Below are positions 12,040 through 49,845 of a DNA stretch of 64,000 nt, one piece after another. The notes under the pieces are model-generated. The model saw nothing but the letters and a program-made list of their open reading frames with translations. It had not been told where the DNA came from and searched no databases. The position numbers and the translations under genes are program-made. Source of the stretch: Imbricaverruca yamaguchii (taxonomy: Eukaryota; Arthropoda; Thecostraca; Neoverrucidae). Where the stretch lies: contig JAOTOL010001602.1 in assembly GCA_034440575.1 (NCBI GenBank), forward strand, positions 159,001 through 223,000. The letters run 5' to 3'. Position 1 is the stretch's first letter. Each line of letters begins with the position of its first letter.

Positions 12040-12788
12040 TGGCTGCTCTGAATTGACCTGAGCTGATCTGCCTGTAGGTTTGGTGGCGCTCCTGACAGTG
12101 ATAGGGCTGATCGTGTATGACTAATCTGACATGACCTGACCTGACTCGACCTCTGTCCGACAAGCTTGGTGGGGCTGCTTGCAGTGATCGAGCTGATTGT
12201 GTGCGCCTGACCTGACCTGACCTTACCTGTGTCCGACAAAATTGGTAGCACTGTTGACAATAATTGAGCTGATTATGCGCGGCTGACCTGACCTGACTTG
12301 ACCTCTGTCCGGCAGGCTTGGCCACGCTTCTGATAGTGAGCGGGCTGGTCGTGTACGTCTAACCTGATCTGACTTCACCTGTGTCCGGCAGGTTTGCTGG
12401 CGCTGCTGACAGTGATCGAACTGATCATGTACAACTGGCCTGACCTGATCTGACCTGACCTGACCTGACCTGACATGACATGACATGACGTGGCATGATA
12501 TAACATGACATGGCATTACCTGATATGACCTGACCTGACCTGACCTGACATGGCCTGACCTGACCTGATCTGACCTCTGTCCGGCAGGTTTGGTGGCGCT
12601 GCTGACAGTGATCGAACTGATCATGTACAACTGGCCTGACCTGATCTGACCTGACCTGACCTGACCTGACATGACATGACATGACGTGGCATGATATAAC
12701 ATGACATGGCATTACCTGACATGACATGACCTGGTGTGACCTGACATAACCTGACCTGACCTGACCTGACCTGACCTCTGCCCGGCAG
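12040..12788 (+). repeat. Compound array spanning exon A acceptor
   Basis: Six degenerate copies of the last intron bases, acceptor and first ~43 bases of gene 1 exon A, at about 12069, 12157, 12231, 12307, 12381 and 12577. They are separated by (CCTGA)n-rich spacers. The true exon at 12789 is the seventh copy. The two nearest copies also share a ~190-bp higher-order unit with ATGACATGAC and ATGATATAAC words. Confidence 0.85.
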
Positions 12789-12940
12789 GTTTGCTGGCGC
12801 TGCTGACAGTGATCGGACTGATCGTGTACGCCGTTGTGACGGCAGCCACGCACGGAGCCAACGATCTGGGCACTGGCTTTGTGACCCTCTACAAGCATGT
12901 GCCGGCAAACTCTTCGGACCGGGACATGCGGTGCATTCAG
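12789..12940 (+). CDS. Gene 1 exon A: transmembrane anchor of FkbM methyltransferase
   Basis: Acceptor CCCGGCAG|GT at 12788 and donor ATTCAG|GTAGCC at 12940. The exon starts in phase 1 and ends in phase 0. It encodes a strongly hydrophobic run (LLALLTVIGLIVYAVV), then a polar stem with a sequon (NSS) and ending RDMRCIQ. This is the layout of a type II signal anchor followed by a lumenal stem. The residues before it (cytoplasmic tail and start Met) must come from an upstream exon. The frame joins without a stop to exon B. The 5' part of the exon is repeated in the preceding array, and its 3' part plus donor is partly repeated at 12970 and 13240. The anchor role is inferred from hydropathy. Confidence 0.7.
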
Positions 12941-12966
12941 GTAGCCGTCTGCCGCATGCCACCGGC

Positions 12967-13260
12967 TCCGGCTTTGTGACCCTCTATAGCTTGGATTGGA
13001 TTGGATTGTGGCTTTACGACGCCCCCAGCAGCTGAGGCCATACAGCGTCGCCTGCCTCTCACCCTGGCAGGAAGGGCGAGTATCGCGGGGAATCTAACCC
13101 CGTACCTCTGGCTTGCCAGACGCTCAGCTTAACCGCTGAGCTACCGACGCCCCCCCTCTATAGCTTGATGGGCCACCTATTCGGGCCGATATCTGCGCGG
13201 TGTACACCATACAAGCAGCCGTCTGTTGTATGCCGGCTCTGGCTTTGGCTCCGTCCACGG
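12967..13260 (+). repeat. Degenerate duplications of exon A 3' end, split by a SINE
   Basis: GGCTTTGTGACCCTCTA of exon A (12867) recurs at 12971 about 103 bp later, is interrupted by a SINE, and the following sequence resumes at 13168. The stretch with the donor (CAGGTAGCCGTCTGCCGCATG) has a further diverged copy around 13210-13255 (AAGCAGCCGTCTGTTGTATG). Confidence 0.65.
12994..13153 (-). mobile_element. tRNA-derived SINE, family C
   Basis: On the minus strand it reads a tRNA-like head with A box TAGCTCAGCGGTTA and a B-box-like GGGTTAGATTCC, then a body ending in a TCCAATCCAATCC tail. It is bounded by a perfect 14-bp target-site duplication, CCCTCTATAGCTTG (12980-12993 and 13154-13167). Confidence 0.85.
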
Positions 13261-15031
13261 CACACCTTGTAGTTTTTGCAGGCGTGCAACTTGGCGTCGC
13301 CAATCTCTCGCGCCATATGGTTACGATAGGCCAAAAGTTTACGTCGTTAGCGAGCCTCGAACCAGCATCCCTTCGGTGACGAGACAGACACATCGACCAT
13401 CACATCAGCACACGCATCGGCGTTCTATCTCATCGCCGTGCATCGATCATTCCATCACACGTGAAAGTTCGTTGGCGTTCGTGAATTACTATACAGGGTC
13501 GGAAGAAATCAAATTTATTATATGCGTCGAGAAGCCAAAGTGCCTGCCATATCAAAGCAATATTAGTACTGGCAAGTATTCCCTTCAGTGAGTGGAGTTG
13601 TGGGACCTGTTCGACAGCTGCCCGTTGGATTATTCGCTTCCGCGTATACGCGTTGGTTCGGCGCCGGGCCGCCAACACCCACTCACCTGACATCTATCGG
13701 CCGGCCACGACAACCAACATATGAATAGCGCTCTGATGAACGGTGCGATCATTTGTCACAGTCGGCCAACGTCGGGCCCCGTAGGACGAGCAATCCGCGT
13801 TTCGCCTCGCACGCCAAAGCCGCCATCGTATATCAGCGAAACGCACGGCCCTGGCAAGGCGCGGACGGGAGGCGGCGCACGTTTTGTTCGAAGCTTTCCC
13901 GGAGTGAAATATTCAGGCGCGCAGATGAATAGCAGGTTGTCGCTGCCTACGAATGTACGTCTACACACCTGCACGCCTGGGTGCAGATAGTTAGCACGCT
14001 GCATGTACACATATACGCACATAGATGTAAGCAAACACACACACACACACACATGCACCCATACTCATCAGAACAATACAATTGCAGATGTTTCACAAAA
14101 TGGACACTTGACAAACCCATGGTGCAATGAATACGAAGCTAAGCGCAGCTAGATGTGAGGATAAAGGACCCTTAGTTGAAAGCAATTCAATTTGTTCCCC
14201 TACAGCACATTCAGTGTCAAATTTCCCAGTTTGTGTTTGCAACGGAGCTCGTGTACGCGATGCCGCTATTTTCGAGCAACAGCCACTCTGCCATCAAAGG
14301 AAGCACAAAATGAACACTCCACACACGTCCAACGCACCCCCGATGAAACTCAACTGTGCGCTCAAACACCAACATCATTATCACAATGGATCACTACATA
14401 TATCGCAACAATTGTCCGGCGACAATATGCTAATGATATGCATGCTAAGACAATGAGAGTAGGTTATTGGGATGTCTGGGGTGACATTCAAGCTGCCGAG
14501 CTCAGATTCAATTCAAGTTCCAAATGCACATTGAGGGTGGTCCCAACGTCGACACGAAGATTAGTTCAGATTGAATGGATTTTTGACTTAAGGACGCATC
14601 GACTGCTACTGGTTATGCAGCATCCCCAGAAGGGGAGGGGTAGTTCAGTTTAAAGGAGATAGGTGGACATAGAAGAGTAAAAGATTGGTGATAATGGAGA
14701 TATAGGATATGCAGTAGATATAGGGGAGTAGAAGAGAGGAAAAGTGAACCTTTACCACTCTGTCCAAAACTATCAGCATGGTGCAGCACAAATACTACCT
14801 TAGTGGTAATTATTCGTTTTGTTTGTGTTTTAATATAATAACCCACAAGTCACCATACATTTGTTCCTTCATTGGGAAAGCTCAGAGTGTACGCTTTAGG
14901 GATAGCTGTACCTAGGTGTTGCCCATCACCGAAAACCCTGAGTCTACCACCGTGTTTCATAACGCACAACTCAGAACGAGTTTCCCACACTTCCACATCA
15001 AAACTGAGGCGCTACGTAAGCCAGGCTGTAA

Positions 15032-15455
15032 AAAGAAATATGCTTCACCAGTGTTTGTGACATCGTACCTATAATCAGGCATTGTTTAGTCTTTCATGAT
15101 TGGCGTAGTGCCATGACACTTATTGAGCTATCGTGAAAGAAATATGCTTCACTAGTGTTTGTGACATCGTACCTATAATCAGGCATTGTTTAGTCTTTAT
15201 GGGGTAGGTTTTGATTAAAATATCTCACGTGTGTGACTTGGATTGTTTGTTTTTGGTTGGTAGTGCCCTTATTGTCGTGAAAGAAATATGCTTCACTAGT
15301 GTTTGTGACATCGTACCTGTAATCAGGCATTGTTTAGTCTGTAATGATTGGTGTAGTGCCATGACACTTATTGAGCTATCGTGAAAGAAATATGCTTCAC
15401 TGGTTGGACATCGTACCTGTAATTTTTTTTAGTGCCATGACACTTATTGAGCTAC
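15032..15455. repeat. Four-copy ~100-150 bp direct repeat
   Basis: Copies of AAGAAATATGCTTCACTAGT followed by GTTTGTGACATCGTACCT and CAGGCATTGTTTAGTC start at about 15032, 15136, 15280 and 15383. The spacers contain AGTGCCATGACACTTATTGA and vary in length; the last copy is truncated. Confidence 0.85.
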
Positions 15456-17126
15456 CGTCCAACTTCTGACAAGTCGCACTTCTGTCGCAAGAGACCGCCA
15501 TATCGGTCGGTCACGGGTCATTAACCACCGACCCTGACGCTAAACTTCGGGGGTAACTATGGCAACCATGGTCAGCTATCAGCCATGAAAAGTGTTACAG
15601 GCACTGCGATTGGACGCCGATTTGGCTATGCCGGTATTGCGTTCACGTGATCCATATGCCATACTAACTTGTAAAATGTCACCGTGTTCCCTAAGCGCGG
15701 GCTCGATATGCTTTGGGTGTGGATAAGATTGCCAGGCTCCGAATTTGATTGGGGATTCAGAAGTAGGCATTCAGGAGCGAGTGCAATTGTAGCGGGGCTT
15801 CAGCGAAGGGTTCTAAAAATGCTCTTTACTTTCGCATGCTGCTTTTATCTTTCAATGTCAAGTACTGGTTACAGCAGGGCAAACAAATGGATGGGCACTG
15901 TATTGGACTTCTGGCTCTGAGTGGGTCGGGCCATACTAATCGATGCCCTTGTGCCTGGAAGAACCCCAATGCGAACCAATTTCCAATGTCCGTGTTCACA
16001 CGCTGCGAATTGGCCTATTATCGTTGCGTGAATCTCGATCCATGCCATGCACACAAACCCAGTGGAGTTAGGAGCACGTGAACGGCGATGTTCTGCACTG
16101 CGCATATTGTGGTTAAGCGATGAAGGTTCGGAAAAGTAATACCATCTCATCAAACGGAAATAATATCAAGTCGTGTGCAAACAGCTAGACGGTTGCGGAC
16201 GAAAGCGCCTCAATTTACGCAAATTTAGGCAAATTTAGGCGAATTGCGGGCAACAGCGCGTAGTGCTTGCTGGGCGATTCTTGGCCGTTCCGTCATAGTC
16301 CTGTCAGAAGCTGTGCGGGGCCGTGTCGGTGGTGGAGTCGAGCCAGGCCGCTCAATACTTCGCCGCCGGCTGTGGGAAGCCCGGCTCGACCACTCGCTCG
16401 CGCATCGCTCACACCGAATTGCTCGCCGAGAGCGAATGCGACGACCGTTTCGGTGCTTGCTGACCTCTATTGAGCCGGGCGCCGTTCGCCCGTTGATGGC
16501 GTCAATCGAGTAGATGACGTATGTCGGATGTCTTCATTCCGGACTACTTAGGAGGCATGGGACAATATACTGCCGATCGTCTGCCAGGCAGTCGCCGTCC
16601 GTGGCATTACATTTCCTTTTTCATTATTATTATCTTGGCTTTTCATACTCGTTTAGATTGCCCTCGTCACATTCCGTTGCCGAGGCGAGATTGGAACCGA
16701 TCTCAGTTAAATTTGGACTCCTGGTGGTGTTAGATCATAATTGCTGATTGGGACTAGGACGGGTGAAGTAATGAGATGCGAAATTGATATTGGTTTTCTT
16801 ATCCTGCATCATGGCAGGAGCGGAACCAAAAGCCTGGCTGAGCGCGGAGAAATTCAACAAAAGTTATCCGATTTGAAGAAAAAGCTGATCGGATTTAAAC
16901 GGCTAGCGGTCTGCGGATCCTCTGCAGAACATTTTAAAGTCATATAATGTTCTCAGATTTCGAGAAAATGTAATTTTGGTGTAACATTTCGGCACAAATC
17001 GACCTCTCGGGGTGGGGGCATTTTGAATCGGCTAGATCGCCTACAAATCTAATAGATTTTCGCTACACTCATTCTAGTATATATATATTTATATATATAT
17101 CCCTGGCTAAGGAAGGCCTTCTGTAT

Positions 17127-17150
17127 GTAGGTTAGGTTAGGTTAGGTTAG
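17127..17150 (+). repeat. Interstitial (TTAGG)n tract
   Basis: GTAGGTTAGG followed by three more GTTAGG-type units, about four copies of the arthropod-type telomeric pentamer, inside intron A-B. It is too short to be a telomere. Confidence 0.8.
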
Positions 17151-17766
17151 TGCATATGAGTCCAATTATGGTCGTACGTGGGCAACTCGCAGTTTTCTTT
17201 ATAACTTCCTAGCTCTCACATTGAGCACTAATGATTCCTAGCATTATAATCCCCAAGTTTGAAGTTGAGGTACTTGGTTCTCGTACTCAAAGGCCCTTGA
17301 ACGAGCAATTTGTCGTATTTTCCTCTTCAATATCACTCGTTACCTCCCATTGCATATCAAAATTCCACAAACATAGCGTAACGTTGCTAGAGCTGAGTTC
17401 GATCCAATACCGCTTGGAGCAATCTTGAGTATCCCTAATTGATTGGAAGATACATTGGGAGCCCGAGCAGATTACATTAGTCTTTTTGCGCCTGCATAGA
17501 AGACGTATGGCCCTACCTCAGTGATAAAGATGGACATTCTGTCTGCCTCGAAAGCTGACGGTCTCACCCAACTATTCCGATGCCTAATTTATCCTCGTGT
17601 TTTGATCCGTTCGGAAATATCTGAGTTGTGCGGCTGTTGTTGCAGCACACTCATCGAAAGTGAAAAATAGTTCCAGCCGAGGTTGTGCCTGCTTCCTATC
17701 CTGGATCACGCACTCGACCATTGGCTGAGCGTCGACCGAGAAAGGCCAAGTCGACCGTCGAACTGT

Positions 17767-17929
17767 GGGGACGAGTAGTCTAGGGGTAAGTTGCTCGTCT
17801 CGCAATCGAAAGGTTGTGAGTTCGAGGCTCACTTGTCGCTACTCTTCGCCCGCGACCAATCGGCGTGAGATTGGCGACGCTACATGACTCAACGGTCGAT
17901 GCGTCAATAAAACCATAGCAACAACGACT
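17767..17929 (+). mobile_element. tRNA-derived SINE, family B
   Basis: Head GGGGACGAGTAGTCTAGGGG with a B box matching GGTTCGAGNCT (here GAGTTCGAGGCT), then the conserved body CGCGACCAATCGGCGTGAGA and tail. Target-site duplication GTCGAACTGT at 17757-17766 and 17930-17939. It is more diverged than the other family B copies. Confidence 0.85.
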
Positions 17930-18315
17930 GTCGAACTGTCATGGCGAGGCTCATATCCGAGGGACCCGTACACAGTTTCGACACTCAAAATGGTGTCGGT
18001 TTGCACCCAATTGGGCCTCATTTTTGTCCACCATATATGTGCCATATACCATGTCGCTCCATATATGCTGCCACATACCATGTCGCTCACATCATCGATC
18101 ACCCCACAGCACTATACATGTTCGTCAAATTCCTACAACTCAGTGTTATCGCCTTCCCCTAACCCCCACCTACCTAACCGCTGTCATTGCACACATCTAT
18201 GATATTCGATTCCACTGGGAATTAAGTAAGTCCGAATCCATCATAGTGCCATATCATAGCAAATACAAGGTAACCAACCGACAGCATGACATCATCTCAA
18301 CTGGGCTTTAGGACA

Positions 18316-19217
18316 GCACACGAATCACTCGCCATTTTATATCTTTTGATGCGTGCTCTGTTGCGTACTCTCATGCTCTGCGACGTGTCCTGTGTGCTCT
18401 GCGACGTGCTCACGTGCTCTGTTGCGTACTCTCGTGCTCTGTTGCGTACTATCGTGCTCTGTTGCATACTCTCGTCCTCTGCGACGTGTTCTGTGTGCTC
18501 TGACGCGTGCTCTGTGTGCTCTGACGCGTGCTCCGTGTGCTCTGACGCGTGCTCTGTGTGCTCTGACACGTGCTCTGTGTGCTCTGACACGTGCTCTGTG
18601 TGTTCTGACGCGTGCTCTGTGTGCTCTGACGTGCTGGTGTTGACGCGTGCTGTTTGCTCTGACACGTGCTCTGTGTGTCGTGTGTTGCGTGCTCTGTCTG
18701 ACGCGTGCTCCGTGTGCTCTGACACGTGCTCCGTGTGCTCTGACGGGTGCTCCGTGTGCTCTGACACGTGCTCTGTGTGTTCTGACACGTGCTCTGTGTG
18801 TCCTGACGCGTGCTCCGTTTGCTCTGACACGTGCTCTGTGTGTCCTGACGCGTGCTCCGTGTGCTCTGACACGTGCTCTGTGTGCTCTGACGCGTGCTGT
18901 GTCTGCGTGCTCCGTGTGCTCTGACACGTGCTCTGTGTTCTGACGCGTGCTCCGTGCTCTGTTGTGTGCTCTGAGACGTGCTCTGTGTGCTCTGCGACGT
19001 GCTCTGTGTGCTCTGACGCGTGCTCTGTGTGTCCTGACGCGTGCTCCGTTTGCTCTGACACGTGCTCTGTGTGCTCTGGCACGTGCTCCGTGTGCTCTGA
19101 CGCGTGCTCCGTGTGCTCCACAGACGGTGACCGTGCCGCCGATTGACGTGTGTGTGTGTGTACAGTGCCCTGGGACGTGCTCCGTGTGCTCTGACGCGTG
19201 CTCCGTGTGCTCCGCAG
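18316..19217 (+). repeat. 21-bp array and duplicated acceptor before exon B
   Basis: About 35 copies of GTGCTCTGACGCGTGCTCTGT lead directly to the exon B acceptor. At 19112-19165 there is a first copy of the acceptor and exon start (GTGCTCCACAG|ACGGTGACCG), then a return to the 21-bp unit, then the true acceptor GTGCTCCGCAG at 19217. The span 18316-19121 contains only one AG dinucleotide, at 18974. Minus-strand open frames of up to 377 codons are array shadows. Confidence 0.85.
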
Positions 19218-19334
19218 ACGGTGACCGTGCCGCCCATTGACGTGTGTGTGTACACCGCCGCGGAGGACCGCTTCGTGTCGGCTCAGCTGCTCACGGAGGG
19301 CGTGTGGCAGCCCACACTCCTCAATGTGTTCCAG
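19218..19334 (+). CDS. Gene 1 exon B: stem and start of FkbM region
   Basis: A 117-bp exon, phase 0 at both ends, with acceptor CTCCGCAG at 19217 and donor TTCCAG|GTAAAG at 19334. It encodes TVTVPPIDVCVYTAAEDRFV and then SAQLLTEGVWQPTLLNVFQ, which fits the region before the SAM-binding motif in FkbM-type proteins, where a short 'disturbance/expression' lead often precedes the first beta strand. It joins exon A and exon C without a frame change. Its first ~37 bases are duplicated upstream at 19124, and its last ~15 bases with the donor are repeated about 31 times downstream. Two alternative donors (19370, 19406) would add 12 or 24 residues in frame. Confidence 0.75.
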
Positions 19335-20370
19335 GTAAAGCGACACGGACCTTCTCAATCCGGGTTCCAGGTAAAGCGACCCGGACATTCTCAATCCGTG
19401 TTCCAGGTAAAGCGACCCGGACCTTCTCAATGTGTTCCAGGTAAAGCGACCCGGACCTTCTCAATGTGTTCCAGGTAAAGCGACACGGACCTTCTCAATG
19501 TGTTCCAGGTAAAGCGACCCGGACCTTCTCAATGTGTTCCAGGTAAAGCGACCCGGACCTTCTCAATGTGTTCCAGGTAAAGCGACCCGGACCTTCTCAA
19601 TGTGTTCCAGGTAAAGCGACACGGACCTTCTCAATGTGTTCCAGGTAAAGCGACACGGACCTTCTCAATGTGTTCCAGGTAAAGCGACCGGACCTTCTCA
19701 ATGTGTTCCAGGTAAAGCGACCCGGACCTTCTCAATGTGTTCCAGGTAAAGCGACCCGGACATTCTCAATGTGTTCCAGGTAAAGCGACACGGACCTTCT
19801 CAATGTGTTCCAGGTAAAGCGACACGGACCTTCTCAATGTGTTCCAGGTAAAGCGACACGGACCTTCTCAATGTGTTCCAGGTAAAGCGACACGGACCTT
19901 CTCAATGTGTTCCAGGTAAAGCGACACGGACCTTCTCAATGTGTTCCAGGTAAAGCGACACGGACCTTCTCAATGTGTTCCAGGTAAAGCGACACGGACA
20001 TTCTCAATGTGTTCCAGGTAAAGCGACCCGGACCTTCTCAATGTGTTCCAGGTAAAGCGACACGGACCTTCTCAATGTATTCCAGGTAAAGCGACCGGAC
20101 CTTCTCAATGTGTTCCAGGTAAAGCGACCCGGACATTCTCAATCCGGGTTCCAGGTAAAGCGACACGGACTTCTCAATGTGTTCCAGGTAAAGCGACCGG
20201 GCCTTCTCAATGTGTTCCAGGTAAAGCGACACGGACCTTCTCAATGTGTTCCAGGTAAAGCGACACGGACCTTCTCAATGTGTTCCAGGTAAAGCGACCC
20301 GGACCTTCTCATTGTGTTCCAGGTAAAGCGACCCGGACCTTCTCAAATGTGTTCCAGGTAAAGCGACACG
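19320..20370 (+). repeat. 34-bp array containing exon B donor site
   Basis: About 31 copies of GTGTTCCAGGTAAAGCGACA + CGGACCTTCTCAAT (34 bp; the first two downstream units are 36 bp). Each unit contains exon-end sequence TGTTCCAG and the donor GTAAAG. Variants alternate GACAC and GACCC. The array begins in the last 15 bases of exon B. Confidence 0.95.
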
Positions 20371-20579
20371 GGTACAGAAGGACACTTGATTAATTTAATG
20401 ATTAATTGAAAGCCCGTTTAGGATGTCGCTTGCCCTAACTTGCGTTGTGTGAGGCTGAGGTAAACACGTCTTTCATCATATGGATGCTTACTAATATCGC
20501 ACCACGGGATTTAACTCCTTGAAAATAGGCTGTTCTCTGCAATAATGCCTCCTCAGCCTCAAAATATGATTCGCTTGAG

Positions 20580-20815
20580 GTAGCTGTGTTGGGGGTGAGG
20601 TGGGGTGGAGGTGTATGCATGGAGGCGGGGTGGGGATGAGGGTGTGTGTATGGAGGTGCGGGTGGGGTGGGGTGGTACGTGAGGCGGTGTGGGTGGTGCT
20701 GGTGGGTGGAATTGGGTGGTGTGTGTAGAGATGTGCGGGGTATGGAATGGTTGTGGGGGTGGGTGTGTGGGGATGGGTGTGTGGGGATGGGTGCGTGGGG
20801 TGGGAGCTATGTTGG
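20580..20815. repeat. G-rich GGTGGGG/GTGTGTGGGGATG repeat
   Basis: Strand-asymmetric G/T-rich tract of degenerate GGGTGGGGTGG and GGGTGTGTGGGGATG units within intron B-C. It could form G-quadruplexes; this is inferred from composition. Confidence 0.8.
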
Positions 20816-22863: not shown

Positions 22864-24341
22864 AAGCAAATTAGCAAATTATCTATGTCTTACCGTGCTC
22901 TGGGCTTAGGCTGTTTTTATTCGTCCTTCTAAGCCTATTCTACTAAAGTCGTCCCACTGCACAGACTCTTGGAGACGACCATTGCCACTGTAGGAAGCAA
23001 AAGCAGGCTAGACGCAATGTCAGGTGAGGAGCAGTGAGGGCAAGCAGTTACAACTTACCAGGTGGCGACACGCACCTTTATTGGGCCTATTGTCGCAAAC
23101 ATAGAGCACCGTGGAGACAAATAAGAGAGCGCCGAATGCGAATTCAGGGTAACTCTCTAAAATATGAAATAATTTACTGCACACAAGATCAGCTTACGTT
23201 ACGACCAGTCACCTATGTAATTGACCTTGGATGGTACCGTGTCATTGACCTGGCATGTCACCCGTGCCATTGACCTGCAATGTCACCCATGTCATGTTCT
23301 TGGGGGTGTCACCCGTTCCATTGACTTAGGATGTCACCCGTGTCATTGACCTGCGATGTCACCCGTGTCATTGAGCTAGGGTGTCACGCGTGTCATTGAC
23401 CTGGAATGTTAACCGTGCTATTGACCTAGGATGCCACCAGTGCTTTGACCTGGATATCATCGTATCCTGATCTTGGATGTCGCCCGTGTCATTGACCGAG
23501 AATGACTGAAAAGTTGCTAACATTGAAATGCGTGTGAATTCCACACGCATTTTGCAGTTTACAAGATTCTTATGTCCATTCACAGATCATTCGACACTGG
23601 AATGATCTGAAAATATCACATCATATCAATTGGGACCTGAAAAAGTGACTACCCTAATGTGGCAAAATGCTATTTTGGTCGGAAGGGAAGATGGTGGATG
23701 ACACGCATTTTTAATCATAGCTCCGTGATTTCATCTGATATCGACCGTAAACTTGAAGCTTCCGTTATGTTGAATCATGTGTATGACGATTTGTGTTGGC
23801 ATACGGTTTGCTTTCAGTTATGAACATAAAAACAAAGCTACGTCTTGATCATGACTTAGTACCGTAATCTAGTCTGAGATCATGCAACCTACCTTCGTAT
23901 CTCCTTTAGTCAAGTGCCTAGACACACATACGCTTTTTGCCTATCTTTAAAACTAGATTTGCTATAGTTCTTTGATATCATTCCGAAAGGAACCCTCTCT
24001 GGAGTTGATAAGCTGACTTTAACTAAGTCTAGCTCGGCCATCCCGGATGGCCCAGCAACCGCTTTGAAAGTGAACGGGTTTCAATTAGATCTTCAGAGAG
24101 AGAAGTATGTGAGTAAAGTACCGCTAAGGATCCGGAAGTTATCCTAAACGAACCTTAGAAGAGGTGGAGTGGTGGAGTTACCTGCTCCATCTGGAGCTCA
24201 AAGTCAAACAACCGGAAGATCAACATTTACATTGCGATGTTGTTCGTGCATACGTATCATATGTGTGCGTGCGCACGCGTGGTGGATTTATGGAGCTGTT
24301 TTTTTACTTTTCGCGAACGCATATTTGTCGCTGTGTTTCAG
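22864..24341. other. Intron B-C, right part
   Basis: Intronic, ending in the pyrimidine-rich CTGTGTTTCAG acceptor of exon C. Apart from the 25-bp array nothing is recognised. Confidence 0.5.
23205..23505. repeat. 25-bp GTGTCATTGACCTG array
   Basis: About 11 imperfect copies of GTGTCATTGACCTGCGATGTCACCC (25 bp) with substitutions and length changes. Confidence 0.85.
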
Positions 24342-24711
24342 AAGGCCCTGAGAAATTATCCCGACGCTGACGTCATTGACCTGGGCGCTCACATCGGATT
24401 CCACACACTGCTGGCGGCTCGGCTCGGACACCGCGTTCTAGCGGTGGAGCCGGTCACCTCTAGTCTGCGACGCATCCGCCACGCGGCGCTCCTGTCGGGT
24501 CTGCTGAGAAACATCACGCTCATTCACAACGCCATCTACAACGCACGAACTTACGCGTGGCTGCGACAACCGCACGGTGATATAGGTGGCACCACAATCG
24601 TGATAGCCGATCCGGCGTATACGAATACGCAGGAAGCGGTGAAGACAATTCTCACGGACGACCTCTATCCGTTCATCAAGAACCGCGTCGTGCTCATCAA
24701 GATGGACATCG
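24342..24711 (+). CDS. Gene 1 exon C: FkbM (Methyltransf_21) SAM-binding core
   Basis: A 370-bp exon with acceptor TGTGTTTCAG at 24341 and donor ATCG|GTACGT at 24711, phase 0 in and phase 1 out. It carries the hallmark Rossmann motif I (VIDLGAHIGFHTLLAARLG), the acidic strand-2 motif (VLAVEPV), the following helix (SLRRIRHAALLSGL), and the strand-4 region RNITLIHNAI with a sequon (NIT). It ends with KNRVVLIKMDI, the start of the conserved 'K-x-D-x-E-G' motif completed by exon D. This is the strongest domain evidence in the window. Known family: FkbM-type SAM-dependent methyltransferases. The substrate cannot be predicted. Confidence 0.9.
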
Positions 24712-27321: not shown

Positions 27322-27451
27322 AGGGCTGCGAGTGTCGCGGGATTTCGTCCGCGTCGCAGCTCTTCAGTCTTGTGCACATTCCGTACATCTTCATGGACTG
27401 GTCGGTGATGTTCCTGCACCAGCGCAAGCCGCACACCGTCTGTACATCCGA
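27322..27451 (+). CDS. Gene 1 exon D: FkbM C-terminal core
   Basis: A 130-bp exon with acceptor GCTTTTTCCAG at 27321 and donor CCGA|GTAAGC at 27451, phase 1 in and phase 2 out. The junction codon plus GC gives the family motif D-I-E-G (KMDIEGCECR across C/D). It continues with HIPYIFMDWSVM, matching the 'ipyi.mEW' strand and Glu/Asp-Trp motif typical of FkbM proteins near the C-terminus; here the usual Glu is Asp. The two cysteines in EGCECR are common in eukaryotic members. The frame is continuous with exons C and E. Confidence 0.85.
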
Positions 27452-37875: not shown

Positions 37876-37915
<40 letters not shown>

Positions 37916-38520
37916 GTACCCAGCTCAGACGATCGACTTGCACGTCAGAATCGCGGCGGACCTCCAGCAGAGTTTCCCCTGGCTTCATCCTGGCCGGGCA
38001 TAGTTCACCATCTTTCGGGTCCCAACGTGTGGGCTCGAGGTCCGCGCCTCAGCAGTGCCGGCGCGCCGAAACGCGCGGCAAGCCAACCGATGGCGCGGCC
38101 CGTGGGTACGCGGCCGGGACGACCCGGAAGCGCCGCAGGGCGCGAAGGTGTGGGAGTCGGCCGGGAGAGGACGGGGACACCCGGAGACGCGGAGACGCCT
38201 GGAGACGCGGCTCGCAGCAACGGGGACTCCGTTCGGTGCAGACGAACACCACAGCAACGGGGACTCCGTCCGGTGCAGACGAATACCGCAGCAACGGGGA
38301 CTCCGTCCGGGTACCACAGCAACGGGGACTCCGTCCGGTGCAGACGAATACCGCAGCAACGGGGACTCCGTCCGGTGCAGACGAATACCGCAGCAACGGG
38401 GACTCCGTCCGGTGCAGACGAATACCACAGCAACGGGGACTCCGTCCGGTGCAGACGAATACCACAGCAACGGGACCGGCGGGCGGCACGCCGAGCAGCT
38501 GGTCCACCACAGCCGGAGGC
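37680..38520 (+). promoter_or_regulatory. CpG-rich region upstream of gene 2
   Basis: Strongly GC- and CpG-rich stretch preceding the first recognisable exon of gene 2, containing a 37-bp array. It is a plausible promoter/5' UTR region by position and composition only; no core promoter motif is claimed. Confidence 0.35.
38214..38475. repeat. 37-bp array
   Basis: About seven copies of CAGCAACGGGGACTCCGTCC + GGTGCAGACGAATACCA (37 bp; one copy shortened). The period is 3n+1, so every frame reads the same 37-residue cycle, giving three overlapping open frames of about 300 codons. Their right ends, not the array, are the probable coding part. Confidence 0.9.
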
Positions 38521-41025: not shown

Positions 41026-41134
41026 AGCTATGCGGTGAGCTGGGCGGCCGCTGCCGTCGGAAGTACCCGAGGCCGCCGCCAGGTGTCAGAGTCATTGCAC
41101 CGGCCTCCAAATGGAAGCATGGAGACACAGCAAG
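41026..41134 (+). CDS. Gene 2 exon 3: N-terminal half of sushi/CCP domain
   Basis: A 109-bp exon with acceptor CTCTGTTTCAG at 41025 and donor CAAG|GTAGGC, phase 1 in and phase 2 out. It encodes LCGELGGRCRRKYPRPPPGV and RVIAPASKWKHGDTA, ending in the codon for Arg completed by exon 4. The first domain Cys, the Pro-Pro-Pro-Gly stretch and the 'GDTARYRC' junction (split over the intron) are the usual layout of a CCP module (C1...G..v.Y.C2). An alternative frame is also open but gives no domain. Confidence 0.7.
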
Positions 41135-41394
41135 GTAGGCGCGACTTGATGCTCTGTCTTGATTCGAATGCATGCACAAAGAGGGAGACTGTAGCTTCTG
41201 AAGCATGACAGATGCAGCACACACTGGAAGCTTATATATACACGGAGTACTTGCCGAACACACGTGTCTTTAACTAATGTTAACACGCAAGGATTTTGGT
41301 GCTTCCTACATGCATTGTTTTCTTGCTACGCAATGTTTCCATGTGAAGATGGTCATCGTTCGGCTGGCTGGCAAGACGCTGAAGTGTGTGTCAG

Positions 41395-41515
41395 GGTATG
41401 GCTGTCTGACACTGACACTGTAGCGTAGCTGTAGCTGTCTGACACTGACACTGTAGCTGATGACACTGACAGTGTCAGTGTCAGTGTCAGTGTCAGTGTA
41501 CGGCTGTCGGGTGCA
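41395..41515. repeat. (GTGTCA)n / CTGACA hexamer tract
   Basis: Mixed CTGACACTGACACTGTAGCT and its complement GACAGTGTCAGTGTCAGTG, forming an inverted arrangement that can fold back on itself. Confidence 0.8.
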
Positions 41516-41570
41516 GTGTGTACGTGGCCACTGAACATATAGGAAAACAAACCAGAACCAGAACCGACTT

Positions 41571-41729
41571 GGTTGGTTATTGGTTTCACGACACATCGAC
41601 CGTTGAGTCGTGTAGCGTCGCCAATCTCTCGCGCCGATTGGTCGCGGGCGAAGAGTAGCGACAGGTGAGACTCGAACCCACAACCTCTTGATTGTGAGAC
41701 AAGCAACTTACCCCTAGGCTACTCATCCC
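41571..41729 (-). mobile_element. tRNA-derived SINE, family B
   Basis: Minus-strand copy with head GATGAGTAGCCTAGGGGTAA, body CGCGACCAATCGGCGCGAGA, tail AAACCAATAACCAACC. Perfect 13-bp target duplication CCAGAACCGACTT at 41558-41570 and 41730-41742. Confidence 0.92.
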
Positions 41730-41742
41730 CCAGAACCGACTT

Positions 41743-42230
41743 CTTGCTCACAACTTTGCATGTACCGTAGCTGCCATCGCCTGATAAAGGATGGCGTATG
41801 ATGTAAACCTATTGATGGCAATAACTTTTTTGTTTAGCCCTTGTAAATCAGGCATGGATCAGGCATGTTTGTGAATCAGTCAATCTGTTATTGGCCAACA
41901 GTTATCGTTCTTCGTTACTGCTCCATGCTGGATGGATTCGGTTGGCTTTATTTCAAAACATCACAATTGTCGAATCCAATTTAGCGAACATAGTGGTCAT
42001 CGGTTAGGGCAGGAATCAAGCTTGTGCTCTCTATGTTGCCAGCGTACGTTTGTCTCTTCTTCTCCCCGCTCTGGTAAATGGGCTAGATTGACTGTAGCTA
42101 CCAGTGCCCCCCCCCCTTCTCCCGACACGCAAAACTGCACTTCATCGTACTCTGGTGGCATAGATCGACCGGACGACTCATCCCGTTCCCCTCGGCACGC
42201 AAACCTCCACTTTATTGTCTAGCATTGCAC
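41743..42230. other. Intron 3 of gene 2, no feature seen
   Basis: Unique intronic sequence before the 77-bp array. Confidence 0.5.
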
Positions 42231-42239
42231 AAAGTCTGC

Positions 42240-43980
42240 AACCACCTTGGCTGGTGGTAAGCCTGGTGGTAAAACACCAGCTGGTGTGTTCAGGTGGTAA
42301 CGCATCAGCTGGTGTTGGCTGGCCTGCTGGTTATTCCGTTGGCGGTACAGGTGCCAGCCAGGTCATCTGTCCCGTTACCACATTGGTTGAAGATGACGTA
42401 CCAGTTGTGCCTACCGTTGGCAGGTGCACGTGACAGCCAGTTTCTGTGGTGCCGTTCCCTGGCTGGTGTGCGCGCCACTGTGCCCGTTGGCGGTACAGGT
42501 GTCCGGCGGGTCATCTGCTCCGTTACCACCCTGGCTGGTGATGACGCCCCACCTGTGTCCCGTTGGCAGGTACAGGTGTCCGGCAGGTCATCTGCTCCGT
42601 TACCACCCTAGCTGGTGATGGCGCACGAGCTGGGTATTGTTGGCAGGTACAGGTGTCCGGCAGGTCATCTGCTCCGTTACCACCCTGGCTGGTGATGACG
42701 CGCCACCTGTGTCCCGTTGGCAGGTACAGGTGTCCGGCAGGTCATCTGCTCCGTTACCACCCTAGCTGGTGATGACGCACGACTGGTATTGTTGGCAGGT
42801 ACAGGTGTCCGGCAGGTCATCTGTTCCGTTACCACCCTGGCTGGTGATGACGCACCACCTGTGTCCCGTTGGCAGGTACAGGTGCCCGGCAGGTCATCTG
42901 TTCCGTTACCACCCTGGCTGGTGATGACGCACGAGCTGGGCATTGTTGGCAGGTACAGGTGTCCGGCAGGTCATCTGTTCCGTTACCACCCTGGCTGGTG
43001 ATGACGCGCCACCTGTGTCCCGTTGGCAGGTACAGGTGTCCGGCAGGTCAGCTGTTCAGCTACCACCCTGGCTGGTGATGACGCTCCACCTGTGTGTCCC
43101 GTTGGCAGGTACAGGTGTCCGGCAGGTCATCTGTTCCGTTACCACCCTGGCTGGTGATGACGCGCCACCTGTGTCCCGTTGGCAGGTACAGGTGTCCGGC
43201 AGGTCATCTGTTCCGTTACCACCCTGGCTGGTGATGACGCACCACCTGGGTCCTGTTGGCAGGTACAGGTGCCCGGCAGGTCATCTGCTCCGTTACCACC
43301 CTGGCTGGTGATGACGCCCCACCTGTGTCCCGTTGGCAGGTACAGGTGTCCGGCAGGTCATCTGTTCCGTTACCACCCTGGCTGGTGATGACGCGCCACC
43401 TGTGTCCCGTTGGCAGGTACAGGTGTCCGGCAGGTCAGCTGTTCAGCTACCACCCTGGCTGGTGATGACGCACCACCTGTGTCCCGTTGGCAGGTACAGG
43501 TGTCCGGCAGGTCAGCTGTTCAGCTACCACCCTGGCTGGTGATGACGCACCACCCGTTGGCAGGTACAGGTGCCCGGCGGGTCATCTGCTCCGTTACCAC
43601 CCTGGCTGGTGATGACGCGCCACCTGTGTCCCGTTGGCAGGTACAGGTGTCCGGCAGGTCAGCTGTTCCGTTACCACCCTGGCTGGTGATGACGCACCAC
43701 CTGTGTCCCGTTGGCAGGTACAGGTGTCCGGCAGGTCATCTGTTCCGTTACCACCCTGGCTGGTGATGACGCACGAGCTGGGCATTGTTGGCAGGTACAG
43801 GTGTCCGGCAGGTCATCTGTTCCGTTACCACCCTGGCTGGTGATGACGCACCACCTGTGTCCCGTTGGCAGGTACAGGTGCCCGGCAGGTCATCTGTTCC
43901 GTTACCACCCTGGCTGGTGATGACGCGCCACCTGTGTCCCGTTGGCAGGTACAGGTGTCCGGCAGGTCAGCTGTTCAGCT
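42240..43980 (+). repeat. 77-bp array spanning the sushi exon 4 acceptor
   Basis: About 20 copies of a 77-bp unit (degenerate from 42240, regular from 42480) of the form CCCGTTGGCAG|GTACAGGTG + TCCGGCAGGTCATCTGTTCC + GTTACCACCCTGGCTGGTGATGACGC..., containing the acceptor and the first ~30 bases of exon 4. Variants carry GTCAGCTGTTCAGCT, identical to the true exon. The unit is 3n+2, so open frames of 69 codons restart every 77 bp. Confidence 0.95.
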
Positions 43981-44055
43981 CGGGAGTCGCGGAGGTGAGG
44001 TCCACCTGCGGCAGAGCCGGCTGGACCAGACCAAGCTTCAGCAGCTGTGTGCCAG
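43949..44055 (+). CDS. Gene 2 exon 4: C-terminal half of sushi/CCP domain
   Basis: A 107-bp exon with acceptor CCCGTTGGCAG at 43948 and donor GCCAG|GTGAAG at 44055, phase 2 in and phase 1 out. It encodes YRCPAGQLFSSGVAEVRST then CGRAGWTRPSFSSCVP, giving domain cysteines 2, 3 and 4, with the invariant Trp between C3 and C4. A second acceptor 17 bases downstream (CCGGCAG at 43965) would lose C2 and lead to a stop in exon 5, so the upstream one is chosen. The exon start is the last copy of the 77-bp array. Confidence 0.75.
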
Positions 44056-45296
44056 GTGAAGTGGCGGCCATCGTCTGAGTCAAGGAAGGCTGGAACGTCA
44101 AGCTTTCGGCTGTCAAAGCAGATTGTCGAACTTCCATGGACAGGAGAAGAAAATTGGACATAATCCCTGTCTGACATACCTGTTCAACGCTTCAACTGTT
44201 TGCCATGGTCATGAATTTGCACACACTAACACAAATCGCAGTTTTACGAACATGAAAATTCCCGGCATATAACAAAATGATGGTGTCACTTCTTACACAC
44301 CTTAAGTAGCACACCCAAAATGTGTAATCCTTTCTCATGCATTGATAACCCTTAACACAACGTACAGTCTGACATACCGATGTCTGTCATAAACCATGCA
44401 ACGGCGAGGTTCGCGTATTTCGCAGTGGTTTGTGGTCACGAATGTGCATCGATTACTGCACATCATATTTGCGTTGTCTTTCACCGTGTCCAAAATGTCT
44501 ACGCTAAAATTGACATTTGTCGGCATAAATTGGCATACATTGGCTCCATTTGCTATTCCTTTGTGGCCATTTACTACCCTGGAGGTGTAAAGCATTGACG
44601 GAGACGCGCATCCCACGAGATGCTCGTTAAATATATTATGGACGCTTCTTTTGTTTCTTCAATGTAAAAATTATTCGGGCACATTTTGCATCTCACTTTG
44701 AAGACTATGTTATTTTGTGCATTGGCCACTTAGCCCATTTATACAAGTGTGGCACGTCTTCTTGCCTGCGGGACATGGTGAGATTTGCAATTATGATTTC
44801 ACCAGCATTTATTTTATTGACTTCCCTCTCGATCACACTACCCTCAAGTAGCCTAAACGTGATGAGATTGTAATTTTGTGAACGGCTTTACATAATTTAT
44901 CATGCATGTATTGACCTCCTTTGTTTTTGCCTTAGCCTTATATAGTGACATTGTGGGTTCTACTTTCCTTTGCATTCCTGCGGTTCGCATCTGGCCCCGT
45001 ATTACTACACGCCTTGTAAGCCCCTAGTTGGACCCTTTGTCAAGGATGACCATTTCCCAGGAACACGTTTGCTATTTTTAAGCTACGCTCGCGTGAGATT
45101 GGGCCCGATGAGATTCCAGTCACCCAATTCATCTCAGAGTTGGGCACTGTCAATTTAATTTTAATTGGAAGAGCTGACTGATAATCGGATATGATTGGTG
45201 ATCGCATAGGCATGAAATAGAGCTCCGTTATATAAGAAGCATCCAGCTGAAATGGAAGCAATTTATAGAAGAGTTGTATGAATTTCGAGAGCACTT
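44056..45296. other. Intron 4 of gene 2, left part
   Basis: No exon, RNA gene or element recognised. Confidence 0.5.
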
Positions 45297-45309
45297 CATG
45301 CACCAGCGA

Positions 45310-45497
45310 GGGGCGGGGATGGCCGAGTGGTTAAGGTGTCGGGCTATGGGTACCAAAGGTCCCGGGTTCGACTCTAGCGCCACTCAGGACATTTCCCAAT
45401 CCCGCGGCCCACCGGCGAAACAGGTGGGCGGCGCCATTAGCCGTGAATGTGCATAAAGTGTGTCGTGAACCAACCAATAAACAAACAATAAACAAAC
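45310..45497 (+). mobile_element. tRNA-derived SINE, family A
   Basis: Full-length copy, intact A and B boxes, tail CAATAAACAAACAATAAACA. Perfect 13-bp target duplication CATGCACCAGCGA at 45297-45309 and 45498-45510. Confidence 0.93.
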
Positions 45498-45510
45498 CAT
45501 GCACCAGCGA

Positions 45511-46522
45511 AGATGACATGTCTTGGTGCTGTTGGCTGATTTTAGCGTACAAATTCATCAGTTTACACAAACCATGTGTCCAGATTCCGAAAAAATCGCC
45601 GACGTATCGAATGTAAGTGACGGGCTTGTCCCGCACATGGATAAAATACTGGTTTCGAATGCGTGCATGTAAGCGATACTCGGTGGCGCCACGCATCGAT
45701 TGCCAATTACAACTCCCTTTACCTGTTTGAACACATAATCGCTAAATATCGCCAAATGGATTGTAAAAATGTGCTGGTTTCAAAGTGCACAATGTGCACA
45801 TCATCCATACTAATATGCTCAATGTGTGCATTAAAATGGAGGAGCGGCACGGCATTTGCACTACAAATGCCTGCCGCATAGAATGCTTCCAGCTGAGTAT
45901 GGAGAGGTGGGTTGCGATTTCTTTGTTTTCCGGTCACGTCGACCAGATATGAAATTGTTCTCTGTTGATTTAAGCGCTCCTTCGCCCATGGCTCTCAGGT
46001 CAGGCCAGCGACTATGTCTGCGCTTATGGAAAAAAGCCTCATCTCAAGCATTCAAGAAAAGAAAGGAGCTTAGCATGTCGACATAGTTTCCATTGAACAG
46101 CGTGATGTCGGCAGCGGTGCGATTACGATAATATAATGGTCATGTAAAGTCACGATATCATTGAAGGACCGTAGCAATGCGGAGGTTGATTTATTTAAGA
46201 TGCATGGGGCTGATGAGGCCCGATGTTAAAATCTGCAATCGTCCCAGAATCAACCAATGTATGGAATCCTTCCTTCTGATGCTGAAGATCACAACGGCTA
46301 ATATATGCTAATATAGGCCACCCGCTCTCCTAATAATTTTCATAAAATGTCAGCTTTGTTTCATTGAGATTCACGAATGCATGTGTAACTAGTGATACAG
46401 TCAGGACCTTGTCGGGTGTGAGGAGGTGTGAGGGGTGGGGGTGGAGCTGCCCTCTAAGGACCAATGCCCCATCGAACTTTAAGATCATTCCCTTGCCACT
46501 ATTTTGATGTACCAAGTTGGCA
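45511..46522. other. Intron 4 of gene 2, middle part
   Basis: No supported exon. An open frame of 121 codons on the minus strand mostly reads through the SINE. Confidence 0.5.
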
Positions 46523-46526
46523 TTAA

Positions 46527-47033
46527 CTTGACACGTCTCGGGAGGGGGCGGGTCTTCAACCGCCCCCTCAGGTCTTTCGCGGGTAACGGACGAACGGCGC
46601 GCGGTAGCGCGCCCAAACGGATACCGATATTTTAATGCAAACTTCTTTTCCCACAGTGAAGAGAAATTGATTTAAACTCAAAATTTTGAAAGTTCAAAAA
46701 GAAACTTTTTGGAGAAAAAATGTTATGGCGCTGGTCGATTTCGCTGTCCTTTTCTCCTTCCAAATAAATTGTGTTTTTTTCATATCTCCCAAAATGAAGT
46801 CCCAGAGCCAAAAACATAATGTAAGTCGTGAAAAGTCGTGAAAATCTAGCCCTCCTGGTGACGTCACTTTTGGGGAAGTTGTTTTAGGGGTGGATCCGGA
46901 CCCTACTCGTCGAGCGCTTTCCGACGATACCTCTTTCGTTTTCGTGCGACGCTTCGTTTGGATGCTAGAGGGGGGTTACTATCCGCCCCCTCCCGAGACG
47001 CAGTGTGAGGATCTGACCGGAGAGACGGCGCGG
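46527..47033. mobile_element. TTAA-flanked element, copy 2 (internally deleted)
   Basis: Homologous, in opposite orientation, to 30067-30902. Its right end CCGGAGAGACGGCGCGG|TTAA matches that copy's CCGGAAAGACGGGGAGGG|TTAA. It carries an 18-bp perfect inverted repeat, CGTCTCGGGAGGGGGCGG (46533-46550) and its complement (46982-46999). The left terminus is diverged. No transposase. Confidence 0.5.
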
Positions 47034-47503
47034 TTAAGAGCGCCTCATACTACGGACAAAGGGTATTCGTCGTTTAAAAAATTATGGCTCTGCAATGAGT
47101 TACATTTGTAATGCACTTTGCGAGTTGCTGGATTACCTCTGGAAAAAAGAAATCCAGACATAGGGCACCAGATCCCAGGTTCACTTCCTAATCTTTTGGG
47201 GTGAATGCATTCCTTCAATGTTGGGCTGAGCCCTCTACAACATCGCATTTCACCTTGGAACTCACGGATGAATCCCCTAATTCCCTTCAATTTTAGTTCA
47301 TCTGATCAGCAGATGCATTAAAAACAGTGGCAGCAGCGAGCCCCCAATAACGTCGAAGATGCTCCACCTCTACCAAATCGTAGCGCTCGAGGTCTTATAC
47401 TTGTGTCGCTCACAAGTCATGGACGGTGCTGAGCCACCCGACCAGCCGACTGCACACCTGCCACCTCACTGAGACACACAGAACGAGCTCAAGTCTTTCC
47501 CGC

Positions 47504-47659
47504 GGGGGACGAGTAGCCTAGGGGTAAGTTGCTCGTCTCACAATAGAAAGGTTGTGGGTTCGAGTCTCACCTGTCGCTACTATTCGCCCGCGACCAATCG
47601 GGGTGAGAGATTGGCGACGCTACATGACTGTCGTAAGTGTCGTAAAACCAACAACCAAC
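47504..47659 (+). mobile_element. SINE family B inserted in exon 5 acceptor tract
   Basis: Head GGGGGACGAGTAGCCTAGGG with B box GGTTCGAGTCT, body and CCAACAACCAAC tail. Perfect 14-bp target duplication CAAGTCTTTCCCGC at 47490-47503 and 47660-47673. The right copy of the duplication is the pyrimidine tract of the exon 5 acceptor (next bases AG|GC). Confidence 0.93.
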
Positions 47660-47675
47660 CAAGTCTTTCCCGCAG

Positions 47676-47764
47676 GCTGTTCCGGCGACAAGGAGAAGCG
47701 ATCGGTGGGATGTCCGTGCACCACTAGTTCGGACTGCTCGCAACAGAGGGAACTAGCAGCATCG
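47676..47764 (+). CDS. Gene 2 exon 5: cysteine-rich segment
   Basis: An 89-bp exon with acceptor TCTTTCCCGCAG at 47675 and donor TCG|GTGAGT at 47764, phase 1 in and phase 0 out. Only one frame is open: CSGDKEKRSVGCPCTTSSDC then SQQRELAAS. Four Cys in the pattern C-x10-C-x-C-x5-C follow the sushi domain directly. No family is recognised. Confidence 0.65.
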
Positions 47765-48461
47765 GTGAGTTGCGAAACGTGTCAATCGTGAGACACGCTA
47801 AGACTGTTGTTTCACTAAAGTATCTGTTCCTGGCTGGAAAACACTACAATCCTGACGTTGCGTCCGATAGGGACTGTCTCCATTTCATAAGTAGAGAGTA
47901 TGAGTAAAGTCTGCCATTGAGAACGACCAATCAACGCCATGGCACAACCTTGTCCAGTCGCCCTTCCCTACCCACGTTCCATCCAGCAATCATCCCGCTG
48001 AACTCTCTACTTTTGATTCTTCGGTCGCATATTTTCACAATAATCACAGCCGATCGAAATAATGAATTCCAGTAGTGAACAACCGGCCTCCCGTGAACTA
48101 GAGTGTAGCTTCATGTATTTTCTCTGGTAGGTCTTGCATTCTCAATGTTTGATTTGCAAAAATGTCTTCTGGGTATGACATGGAACCATGCAGAGGCGTA
48201 GAAGTGTCTCAAACAGTGAGGGGTGGGGAGGAGAAATCTCCTTTGAAGTTCCTTTTTACCATGCATTGCCACGGCACGGATGTTAAACTTTCATAAGTGT
48301 GTGTGGGGCGGTGGGCGTGGCCCACCTATGGAACCCTGCACAACTGGCCGTTTGATTCCGATAGATCGCATGGCTGATGCGTGCTCCTCCAAGACAGTGA
48401 GTGTAGTTCGACGTTGCATCAGTTTTCATCTCATATCGCCACAGTCAAGACCACACTAGTC

Positions 48462-48950
48462 CTCAGACCTCTGTCCTCAGACTACAGTCCTCAGACCACA
48501 GTCCTCAGACCACAGTCCTCAGACCACAGTCCTCAGACCTATGTCCTCAGGACCTATGTCCTCAGACCTACAGTCCTCAGACCTATGTCCTCAGACCTAT
48601 GTCCTCAGACCTATGTCCTCAGACCTCAGTCCTCAGACCTATGGCCTCAGACCTCTGTCCTCAGACCACAGTCCTCAGACCTATGTCCTCAGACCTATGT
48701 CCTCAGACCTATGTCCTCAGACCTATGTCCTCAGACCTCAGTCCTCAGACCTATGGCCTCAGACCTCTGTCCTCAGACTATGTCCTCAGACCACAGTCCT
48801 CAGACCTATGTCCTCAGACCTATGTCCTCAGACCTCAGTCATCAGACCTATGTCCTCAGACCTATGTCCTCAGACCTATTTTCTCAGACCTATGTCCTCA
48901 GACCTCAGTCCTCAGACCTATGTCCTCAGACCTTAGTTCTCAGACCGAAC
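48462..48950. repeat. 14-bp array in intron 5
   Basis: About 34 copies of TCCTCAGACCTATG (14 bp) with ACAG, TCAG and CTCTG variants. The period is 3n+2, so three overlapping open frames are shadows of one 14-residue cycle. Confidence 0.95.
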
Positions 48951-49003
48951 TCCGTCGGCGACGCCACACTTGGACGATTTTTTTTTATAGCTAGTATTTC
49001 TAG

Positions 49004-49286
49004 CACTACTTAGGTGCCGTGCTGTCTGGAAACTGCAAGCGGGCGACGCGTGAAGCCGATGGCAACGTGTCCGTGGCCGATATGAGTGATGAGCGAATTC
49101 ACGATACACGTGCGCAATTTTCCAGCGGATGTTCATCAGGAAGGCGATCTGCTACCACGGTTTCTGCTTCGACTGCTCGCGGTTCGCAGTGGCCGACGTC
49201 GGCGAAGCGCCCCGCGGCTGTGCCGACACAGCTGACACAGTGTCAGGTTGGTAGGGCTTATCCGTGGGAAACCGACACAGTGTCAG
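49004..49286 (+). CDS. Gene 2 exon 6: Ser-rich linker
   Basis: Acceptor with a long T tract, TTTTTTTTATAGCTAGTATTTCTAG, at 49003; phase 0 in matches exon 5. It encodes HYLGAVLSGNCKRATREADG, then a Ser/Thr/Arg-rich linker with SSGCSSGRRSATTVSAS and a final VGRAYPWETDTVS. The donor TGTCAG|GTTAGT at 49286 is the second copy in a 40-bp array. The first copy (49246, GTTGGT) leaves phase 0 and would not match exon 7, and a third copy runs into a stop. The phase 1 end is what exon 7 needs. Confidence 0.6.
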
Positions 49287-49845
49287 GTTAGTGCGGCTCA
49301 TCCGTGGGAAGCTGACACAGTGTCAGGTTAGTGCGGCTCATCCGTGGGAAGCTGACACACTGTCAGGTTAGTGCGGCTCATCCGTGGGAAACTGACACAG
49401 TGTCAGGTTAGTGCGGCTCATCCGTGGGAAACTGACACAGTGTCAGCTGCCCTCGGAGTGTCAGTCGTCAGGCCACTGTGATTCGCCCCTGGAAACCTGA
49501 CACACTGTCAGGCCACTGTGATTCGCCCCTGTAAACCTGACACACTGTCAGGCCAGTGTGACTCGCCCCTGGAAATATGTCAGGCCAGTACGGCTCGACC
49601 CTGGAAACCTGACACAATGTCAGGCCAGTACGGCTCGACCCTGGAAACCTGACACAATGTCAGGCCAGTAGGCTCCCCTGGAAACCTGACACAATGTCAG
49701 GCCAGTATGGCTCGCCCCTGGAAACCTGACACACTGAAACTTGACGCAATGTCAGTCATACGTTCGCCCTGCCCGAAACCTGACACACTGTCAGGCCAGT
49801 GTGACTCGCCCCTGGAAACCTGACACAATGTCGAGCAAGGCCACT
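49231..49845 (+). repeat. 40-bp array containing the exon 6 donor
   Basis: About 15 copies of a 40-bp unit. The first six keep CTGACACAGTGTCAG|GTTAGT with the GT donor (GTGCGGCTCATCCGTGGGAA). Later ones read CTGACACACTGTCAGGCCAC + TGTGATTCGCCCCTGGAAAC, where the donor GT has become GC. Each unit also holds the palindrome CTGACACNNTGTCAG. Confidence 0.9.

Follow-up and report, generated by a model that had tools for sequence, protein, structure and literature searches.

The closest described systems are the so-called mirages, minisatellite-like duplications of 5' or 3' intron-exon boundaries that were reported in the Adh3 and globin genes of lancelets (PMC3087553). For the Adh3 and globin mirages, reverse transcription PCR data suggest regular splicing (PMC3087553; PMC3902484), and the lancelet TnC and PGBD5 genes harbor mirages as well (PMC3902484). 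In humans, the IFI6 (6-16) gene carries a minisatellite with multiple splice donors (Turri 1995), and two downstream repeat units act as donors (PMC4526556). Human segmental duplications contain tandem repeats with a mean unit of 30 base pairs (bp), with 27 intron modifications at exon-intron boundaries (PMC2812944), and a tandem duplication over an intron-exon boundary created an intron in potato RdRp (PMC4974935). Here, we analyzed a 64,000-nucleotide stretch of contig JAOTOL010001602.1 (hereafter, the window), in which five splice junctions of two neighboring genes lie within tandem arrays. We interpret these arrays as mirages, that is, splice-straddling duplications in a minisatellite-rich genome, with splicing predicted at the exon-edge copy only (probability of about 0.8). 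The arrays are likely neutral. A preliminary description of this DNA held that no system of this kind had been described; the lancelet mirages (PMC3087553, PMC3902484) and the human IFI6 minisatellite (PMC4526556) precede it. The structure is already known, and the copy number is unusual: no donor with as many copies as the 31 here was found among the open-licence papers surveyed, which were covered mostly through titles and abstract openings.

The exons of both genes were assembled by hand, and the junction copies were counted by pattern. Five of 18 junctions, a count that excludes gene-2 exons 1 and 2 as their edges are not settled, were captured by arrays: in gene 1, the exon A acceptor (12788|12789), the exon B acceptor (19217|19218), and the exon B donor (19334|19335); in gene 2, the exon-4 acceptor (43948|43949) and the exon-6 donor (49246|49247). 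On this point, the preliminary description agrees with both Tandem Repeats Finder (TRF) and the pattern counts, as the splice site and neighboring exon bases are part of the unit in each array. The units contain exon and intron bases across the splice site in all five arrays, and AG or GT is kept in many copies, as in mirages. By TRF bounds, the arrays extend over 15-41 bases of exon sequence, and the exon-edge copy is intact in all five.

The exon B donor array is the most regular. All 31 copies read CAG|GTAAAG, which bears out the earlier count of up to 31 donors, and no copy was skipped because the spacing is 33-36 bases throughout. The exon-4 acceptor is present in 22 copies, 20 of which keep AG; copies 4-21 translate as RYRCPAG.L..YHP.W followed by a stop, and the diverged copies 1-3 also reach a stop. 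The A acceptor occurs seven times between 12076 and 12788 with a spacing of 76 to 201, and every copy continues into the initial bases of the exon, where the membrane segment starts. AG is kept in five of these copies and replaced by AA in two, and the first copy (12076) lies just beyond the TRF bounds. At the exon B acceptor, the 94-bp duplication holds the acceptor and the first 34 exon bases, resulting in two copies (19124 and 19218), both with AG. The six exon-6 donor copies are one CAG|GTTGGT, four CAG|GTTAGT, and then CAG|CTG, so that GT is present in five. In the related array downstream, TGTCAG is mostly followed by GCC, also by TC, and never by GT. The exon C donor was not captured, and a 24-bp array begins 52 bases downstream of it. 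The earlier statement that more than half of the boundaries near arrays are captured holds within 100 bases (5 of 7) and fails within 200 (5 of 11) or 500 bases (5 of 13).

Gene 1 is predicted to encode a membrane-anchored FkbM-type methyltransferase. Every join of exons A-E is in phase, and the 328-residue product matched PF05050 (FkbM methyltransferase) with 35.3 bits against a gathering score of 22.7 (E 1.6e-8). At E 0.001, the database search yielded six proteins. The best was P0001, a protein of 396 residues encoded on a 2,135-base contig, which aligned with the spliced translation at 56% identity over 307 residues with no gap. The A/B and B/C edges are well supported because this gapless alignment crosses joins made at the exon-edge copies. 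The alignment starts at residue 1 of exon A and alone does not fix the A acceptor, which was fixed at its exon-edge copy because every upstream copy meets a stop before the remainder of exon A. For the N-terminal exons upstream of A, no convincing P0001 match was found.

Gene 2 has a sushi-like region and a mucin-like tail. Exons 3-7 join in phase, with the frame open into the mucin-like exon. Exons 3 and 4 together scored 14.2 bits for PF00084 (sushi), below the gathering score of 20.7, and their Cys and Trp spacing resembles that of sushi domains by eye. A phmmer search of PDB returned factor XIII B and complement chains with a best E of 5.6e-6 for the whole chain, and no single stretch passed. 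In the separate protein database search, none of 100 candidates matched gene 2 at E 0.001. Inferred from phase-compatible joining and a sub-threshold sushi match, the exon edges of gene 2 are less secure than those of gene 1. Table 1 summarizes the features of both genes and their arrays.

Table 1. Exons of the two genes and associated tandem arrays (positions in the window).
Feature	Position	Strand	Description
A-acceptor array	12132..12829	+	TRF; CTGAC-rich intron part
Gene 1 exon A	12789..12940	+	Signal-anchor-like segment GLLALLTVIGLIVY...RCIQ; translation and gapless P0001 alignment
B-acceptor array	18352..19251 (merged)	+	21-bp array (GTGCTCTGACGC...) leading into a 94-bp, 1.9-copy duplication at 19071-19251
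Gene 1 exon B	19218..19334	+	TVTVPPIDVCVY...LLNVFQ; translation and P0001 alignment
B-donor array	19320..20371	+	34-bp unit; includes the final 15 bases of exon B
Gene 1 exon C	24342..24711	+	FkbM methyltransferase core
Gene 1 exon D	27322..27451	+	Translation and P0001 alignment
Gene 1 exon E with stop codon	27864..28080	+	Translation and P0001 alignment
Gene 2 exon 3	41026..41134	+	First half of sushi-like domain
Exon-4 acceptor array	42336..43976	+	77-bp unit including the acceptor and ~28 exon bases
Gene 2 exon 4	43949..44055	+	Second half of sushi-like domain
Gene 2 exon 5	47676..47764	+	In-phase joining
Gene 2 exon 6 (Cys-rich)	49126..49246	+	In-phase joining
Exon-6 donor array	49232..49446	+	40-bp unit; includes the final 15 bases of exon 6
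Related array without GT donors	49467..49845	+	~40-bp unit, akin to the exon-6 donor array
Gene 2 exon 7 start	51189..52290	+	Long mucin-like exon, itself with arrays

For the consequences of distal copy use, the reading frame was followed for each alternative join; for the A acceptor, whose upstream exon is missing, the phase of the last copy was assumed. Among the 58 distal copies keeping AG or GT, 56 resulted in a premature stop. A stop was found with all six distal A acceptors (four keep AG), the single distal B acceptor, all 21 distal exon-4 acceptors (19 keep AG), the four distal exon-6 donors keeping GT, and 28 of the 30 distal B donors (donors 4-31). The remaining B donors 2 and 3 stay in frame and would add 12 and 24 residues, respectively. 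The functions suggested earlier are weak. Isoform choice would be confined to these two donors, as the other 56 distal copies keeping AG or GT give stops, and intron growth stands in the plain sense that the arrays lengthen introns.

A functional array, whose many identical sites would be maintained by selection to act as a buffer or kinetic delay or to switch between isoforms, might be argued from the two in-frame donors and from the B-donor core, which is kept in 31 of 31 copies within a 16-base invariant block. However, this invariance is unexceptional, as 8 of 34 circular windows of the unit are equally invariant, and neither of the other cores measured was less variable than the rest of its unit: 0.91 vs. 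0.92 for the exon-4 acceptor (copies 1-3 left out) and 0.67 vs. 0.55 for the exon-6 donor (six units). Purifying selection on the splice core was rejected on these grounds, and together with the stops after nearly all distal copies, they make a functional array very unlikely. The short extent of the arrays into the exons was dropped as a sign of selection, as, by construction, an array can never cover more than one unit of exon. In its intron portion, the A array consists of CTGAC pentamers, which match the animal branch-point consensus and reach as many as 7 per 48 bases, compared with 0.15 in the background. The CTRAC counts per 48 bases in its seven copies were 0, 3, 3, 3, 2, 7, and 6; the two B acceptor copies had one each, and the motif was absent from all 19 exon-4 copies analyzed. 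A role of the arrays as branch-point suppliers was rejected, as CTRAC is dense in the A array only.

The mirages probably began in this minisatellite-rich genome with a duplicated segment that chanced to span a splice junction, and slippage or unequal exchange would then have raised the copy number. Expansion would be tolerated as long as one terminal copy still functions, and transcripts spliced at distal copies would mostly meet a premature stop and be lost.

Several results weigh against this interpretation. The copies of the B donor are equal in their predicted U1 pairing (-8.3 kcal/mol for donors 1, 2, and 31, which were computed; the 9-mers are identical in all 31). The accessibility of donor 1 relative to the median of copies 7-31 was 0.18 vs. 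0.06, 0.062 vs. 0.056, and 0.031 vs. 0.043 for calculation windows of 80, 150, and 240, respectively. No feature setting the first B donor apart was found in U1 pairing or local accessibility. When equal donors are duplicated in vitro, the intron-proximal site tends to be favored; such a preference would here mean a distal copy and a stop. The pattern of divergence seen in globin mirages, with the edges excluded from homogenization, was not clear in these arrays. In the B array, copy 1 differed from the consensus at 2 positions and copies 2, 3, and 31 at 10, 6, and 8, the last partly due to the cut running into the flank; inner copies 11 and 23-26 differed at 4-8. In the exon-4 array, the intron-side copies 1-3 showed 22-26 differences, and the exon-edge copy showed only 3 differences. 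Finally, the excess of captures described below fits a purely neutral account only with an ascertainment or mutational bias. Two candidates for marking the copy predicted to be used were rejected: a stronger first donor, as U1 pairing is the same in the B copies computed and slightly weaker at exon-6 donor 1 (-7.5 vs. -7.7), and RNA structure selecting donor 1, as the accessibilities are inconsistent over the calculation windows, with the first two B donors favored at the short window only, and donor 2 equals or exceeds donor 1 at 80, 150, and 240.

Overlap beyond chance had been named in the preliminary description as a deciding point, and within the window the answer depends on the null model. 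TRF reported 82 rows; after merging, there were 42 arrays, a high density, which together occupy 24.5% of the window. Under a coverage null with circular shifts, 4.3 of 18 junctions were expected in arrays and 5 were observed (P 0.44), or 3.4 expected (P 0.29) for 12-51.3 kilobases (kb). This result agrees with the view that dense arrays overlap exons by coincidence and that splice sites are nothing special. In the seed null, each array was collapsed to one unit, and a capture was counted only if the seed unit straddled a junction. Here, 0.55 capturing arrays were expected against 5 observed, with a Poisson P of 0.0003 for the best-scoring periods and 0.0007 for the longest. The result held for gene 1 alone (3 vs. 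0.32 expected, P 0.004), for 40 assumed junctions (P 0.0086), and for four captures at 18 junctions with the two-copy B acceptor omitted (P 0.0025). As the window was singled out for its junction arrays, neither the coverage nor the seed P values are unbiased. A junction in every unit requires a starting unit that straddled the junction, and of the two nulls we prefer the one based on the seed. Plain coincidence is possible but doubtful.

The captured junctions also tend to differ in sequence. CAG|GT is found at 4 of 5 captured junctions and at 2 of 13 others (one-sided Fisher test, 0.022; post hoc and with small numbers), and AG|GT at 4 of 5 against 3 of 13 (0.047, likewise post hoc). The preference of captured junctions for CAG|GT is possibly a new observation. 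At the four AG|GT junctions, a wrong distal choice would leave a GT...AG segment that could be respliced without trace, which may explain the tolerance of the arrays. In a stronger form of this idea, the arrays would be self-erasing: each CAG|GT copy would act as back-to-back acceptor and donor, and second-round splicing would restore the same messenger RNA (mRNA). Although we consider this unlikely, CAG|GT junctions could, if it were true, tolerate an almost unlimited number of copies, which would account for the capture of 4 of 5 against 2 of 13.

The same AG|GT pattern would be expected if at least one array were the track of a new intron born by AG|GT-type tandem duplication, the model invoked in the preliminary description, and the potato RdRp intron made by duplication over an intron-exon boundary (PMC4974935) offers a precedent. 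The final 12 bases of intron B-C (24330-24341) match the final 12 bases of exon B at nine positions, and both end in VFQ codons. However, the other seven introns tested gave 2-6 matches out of 12, own pairs averaged 4.4 matches and mismatched pairs 4.2, with 10 of 12 in one of the latter, and 20 of the 3,298 AG-ending 12-mers in the window equal the exon B-end match. Moreover, intron sequence makes up about half of the unit, and the distance to the partner exon is 1.9-6.3 kb at four captured junctions (the exon before A excluded). The sequence resemblance at intron B-C is at most a hint of a duplicated exon segment; intron birth is quite unlikely to lie behind any of the arrays.

An assembly artefact, with repeats expanded or misjoined, would produce frame shifts such as those found in exon 7, which contains a coding array (52296-53579) with the repeat peptide HPVPGVVVGTEA; this peptide switches reading frame several times within the array. 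The switches may reflect a frameshifted allele, an assembly error, or partial splicing. In contrast, the copies of the junction arrays vary in length and sequence, as in the 33-36-bp spacing of the B array, and are not exact duplicates. We regard an artefact as highly improbable.

Other elements were observed in the window. A (TTAGG)3 run, the arthropod-type telomere repeat, lies inside a gene-1 intron (17132-17146). ARAGORN predicted transfer RNA (tRNA)-like elements at 17767-17842 (+) and 41655-41730 (-). By eye, a further copy of this type was seen near 47510, and members of another tRNA-like family near 45310 and 26400. The tRNA-like elements lie inside longer repeated segments and are probably short interspersed elements. 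A GC (guanine plus cytosine) content of about 51%, the (TTAGG)3 run, and the two elements predicted by ARAGORN weakly point to an arthropod. A 142-base piece of eukaryotic large-subunit ribosomal RNA (Rfam RF02543, 169 bits) was found at 37880-38021 (-), directly 5' of the putative exon 1 of gene 2.

The choice among identical splice sites is usually studied with artificial duplications, and the 31 same-core donors of exon B provide a natural experiment in which the spliceosome must choose among competing sites. The tension of interest is that equal donors predict intron-proximal use, which would be harmful for exon B. If most of the mRNA is normal, either the choice of the exon edge or a second-round correction must be efficient. 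The arrays would extend mirages from lancelets to probably another animal lineage, and they lead to a prediction for annotated minisatellite-rich genomes, in which CAG|GT junctions should be preferentially captured.

Among the known systems, the potato RdRp case is alike in that a tandem duplication crosses an intron-exon boundary; it differs in that a new intron was made, whereas the window has large arrays in long introns and only the weak hint at B-C. The boundary repeats of human segmental duplications are tied to cryptic-site activation and new introns, whereas the units in the window straddle the junctions of established exons. In IFI6, as in the window, a donor lies within a minisatellite that supplies many donors; however, the distal donors of IFI6 are used, and 28 of 30 distal B donors would here give a stop. 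The lancelet mirages of Adh3, BflGb6/BflGb9, TnC, and PGBD5 are alike in that their units include the boundary and many copies have AG or GT, with Adh3 units of 10-72 bp. The GC content of the lancelet genome is near 41%, whereas that of the window is about 51%, so the source is probably not a lancelet. The globin mirages have units of about 150 bp, repeated 6 times in one haplotype and 3 times in another, against up to 31 units of 34 bp in the window. The window differs further from the lancelet mirages in that five boundaries are captured in two adjacent genes.

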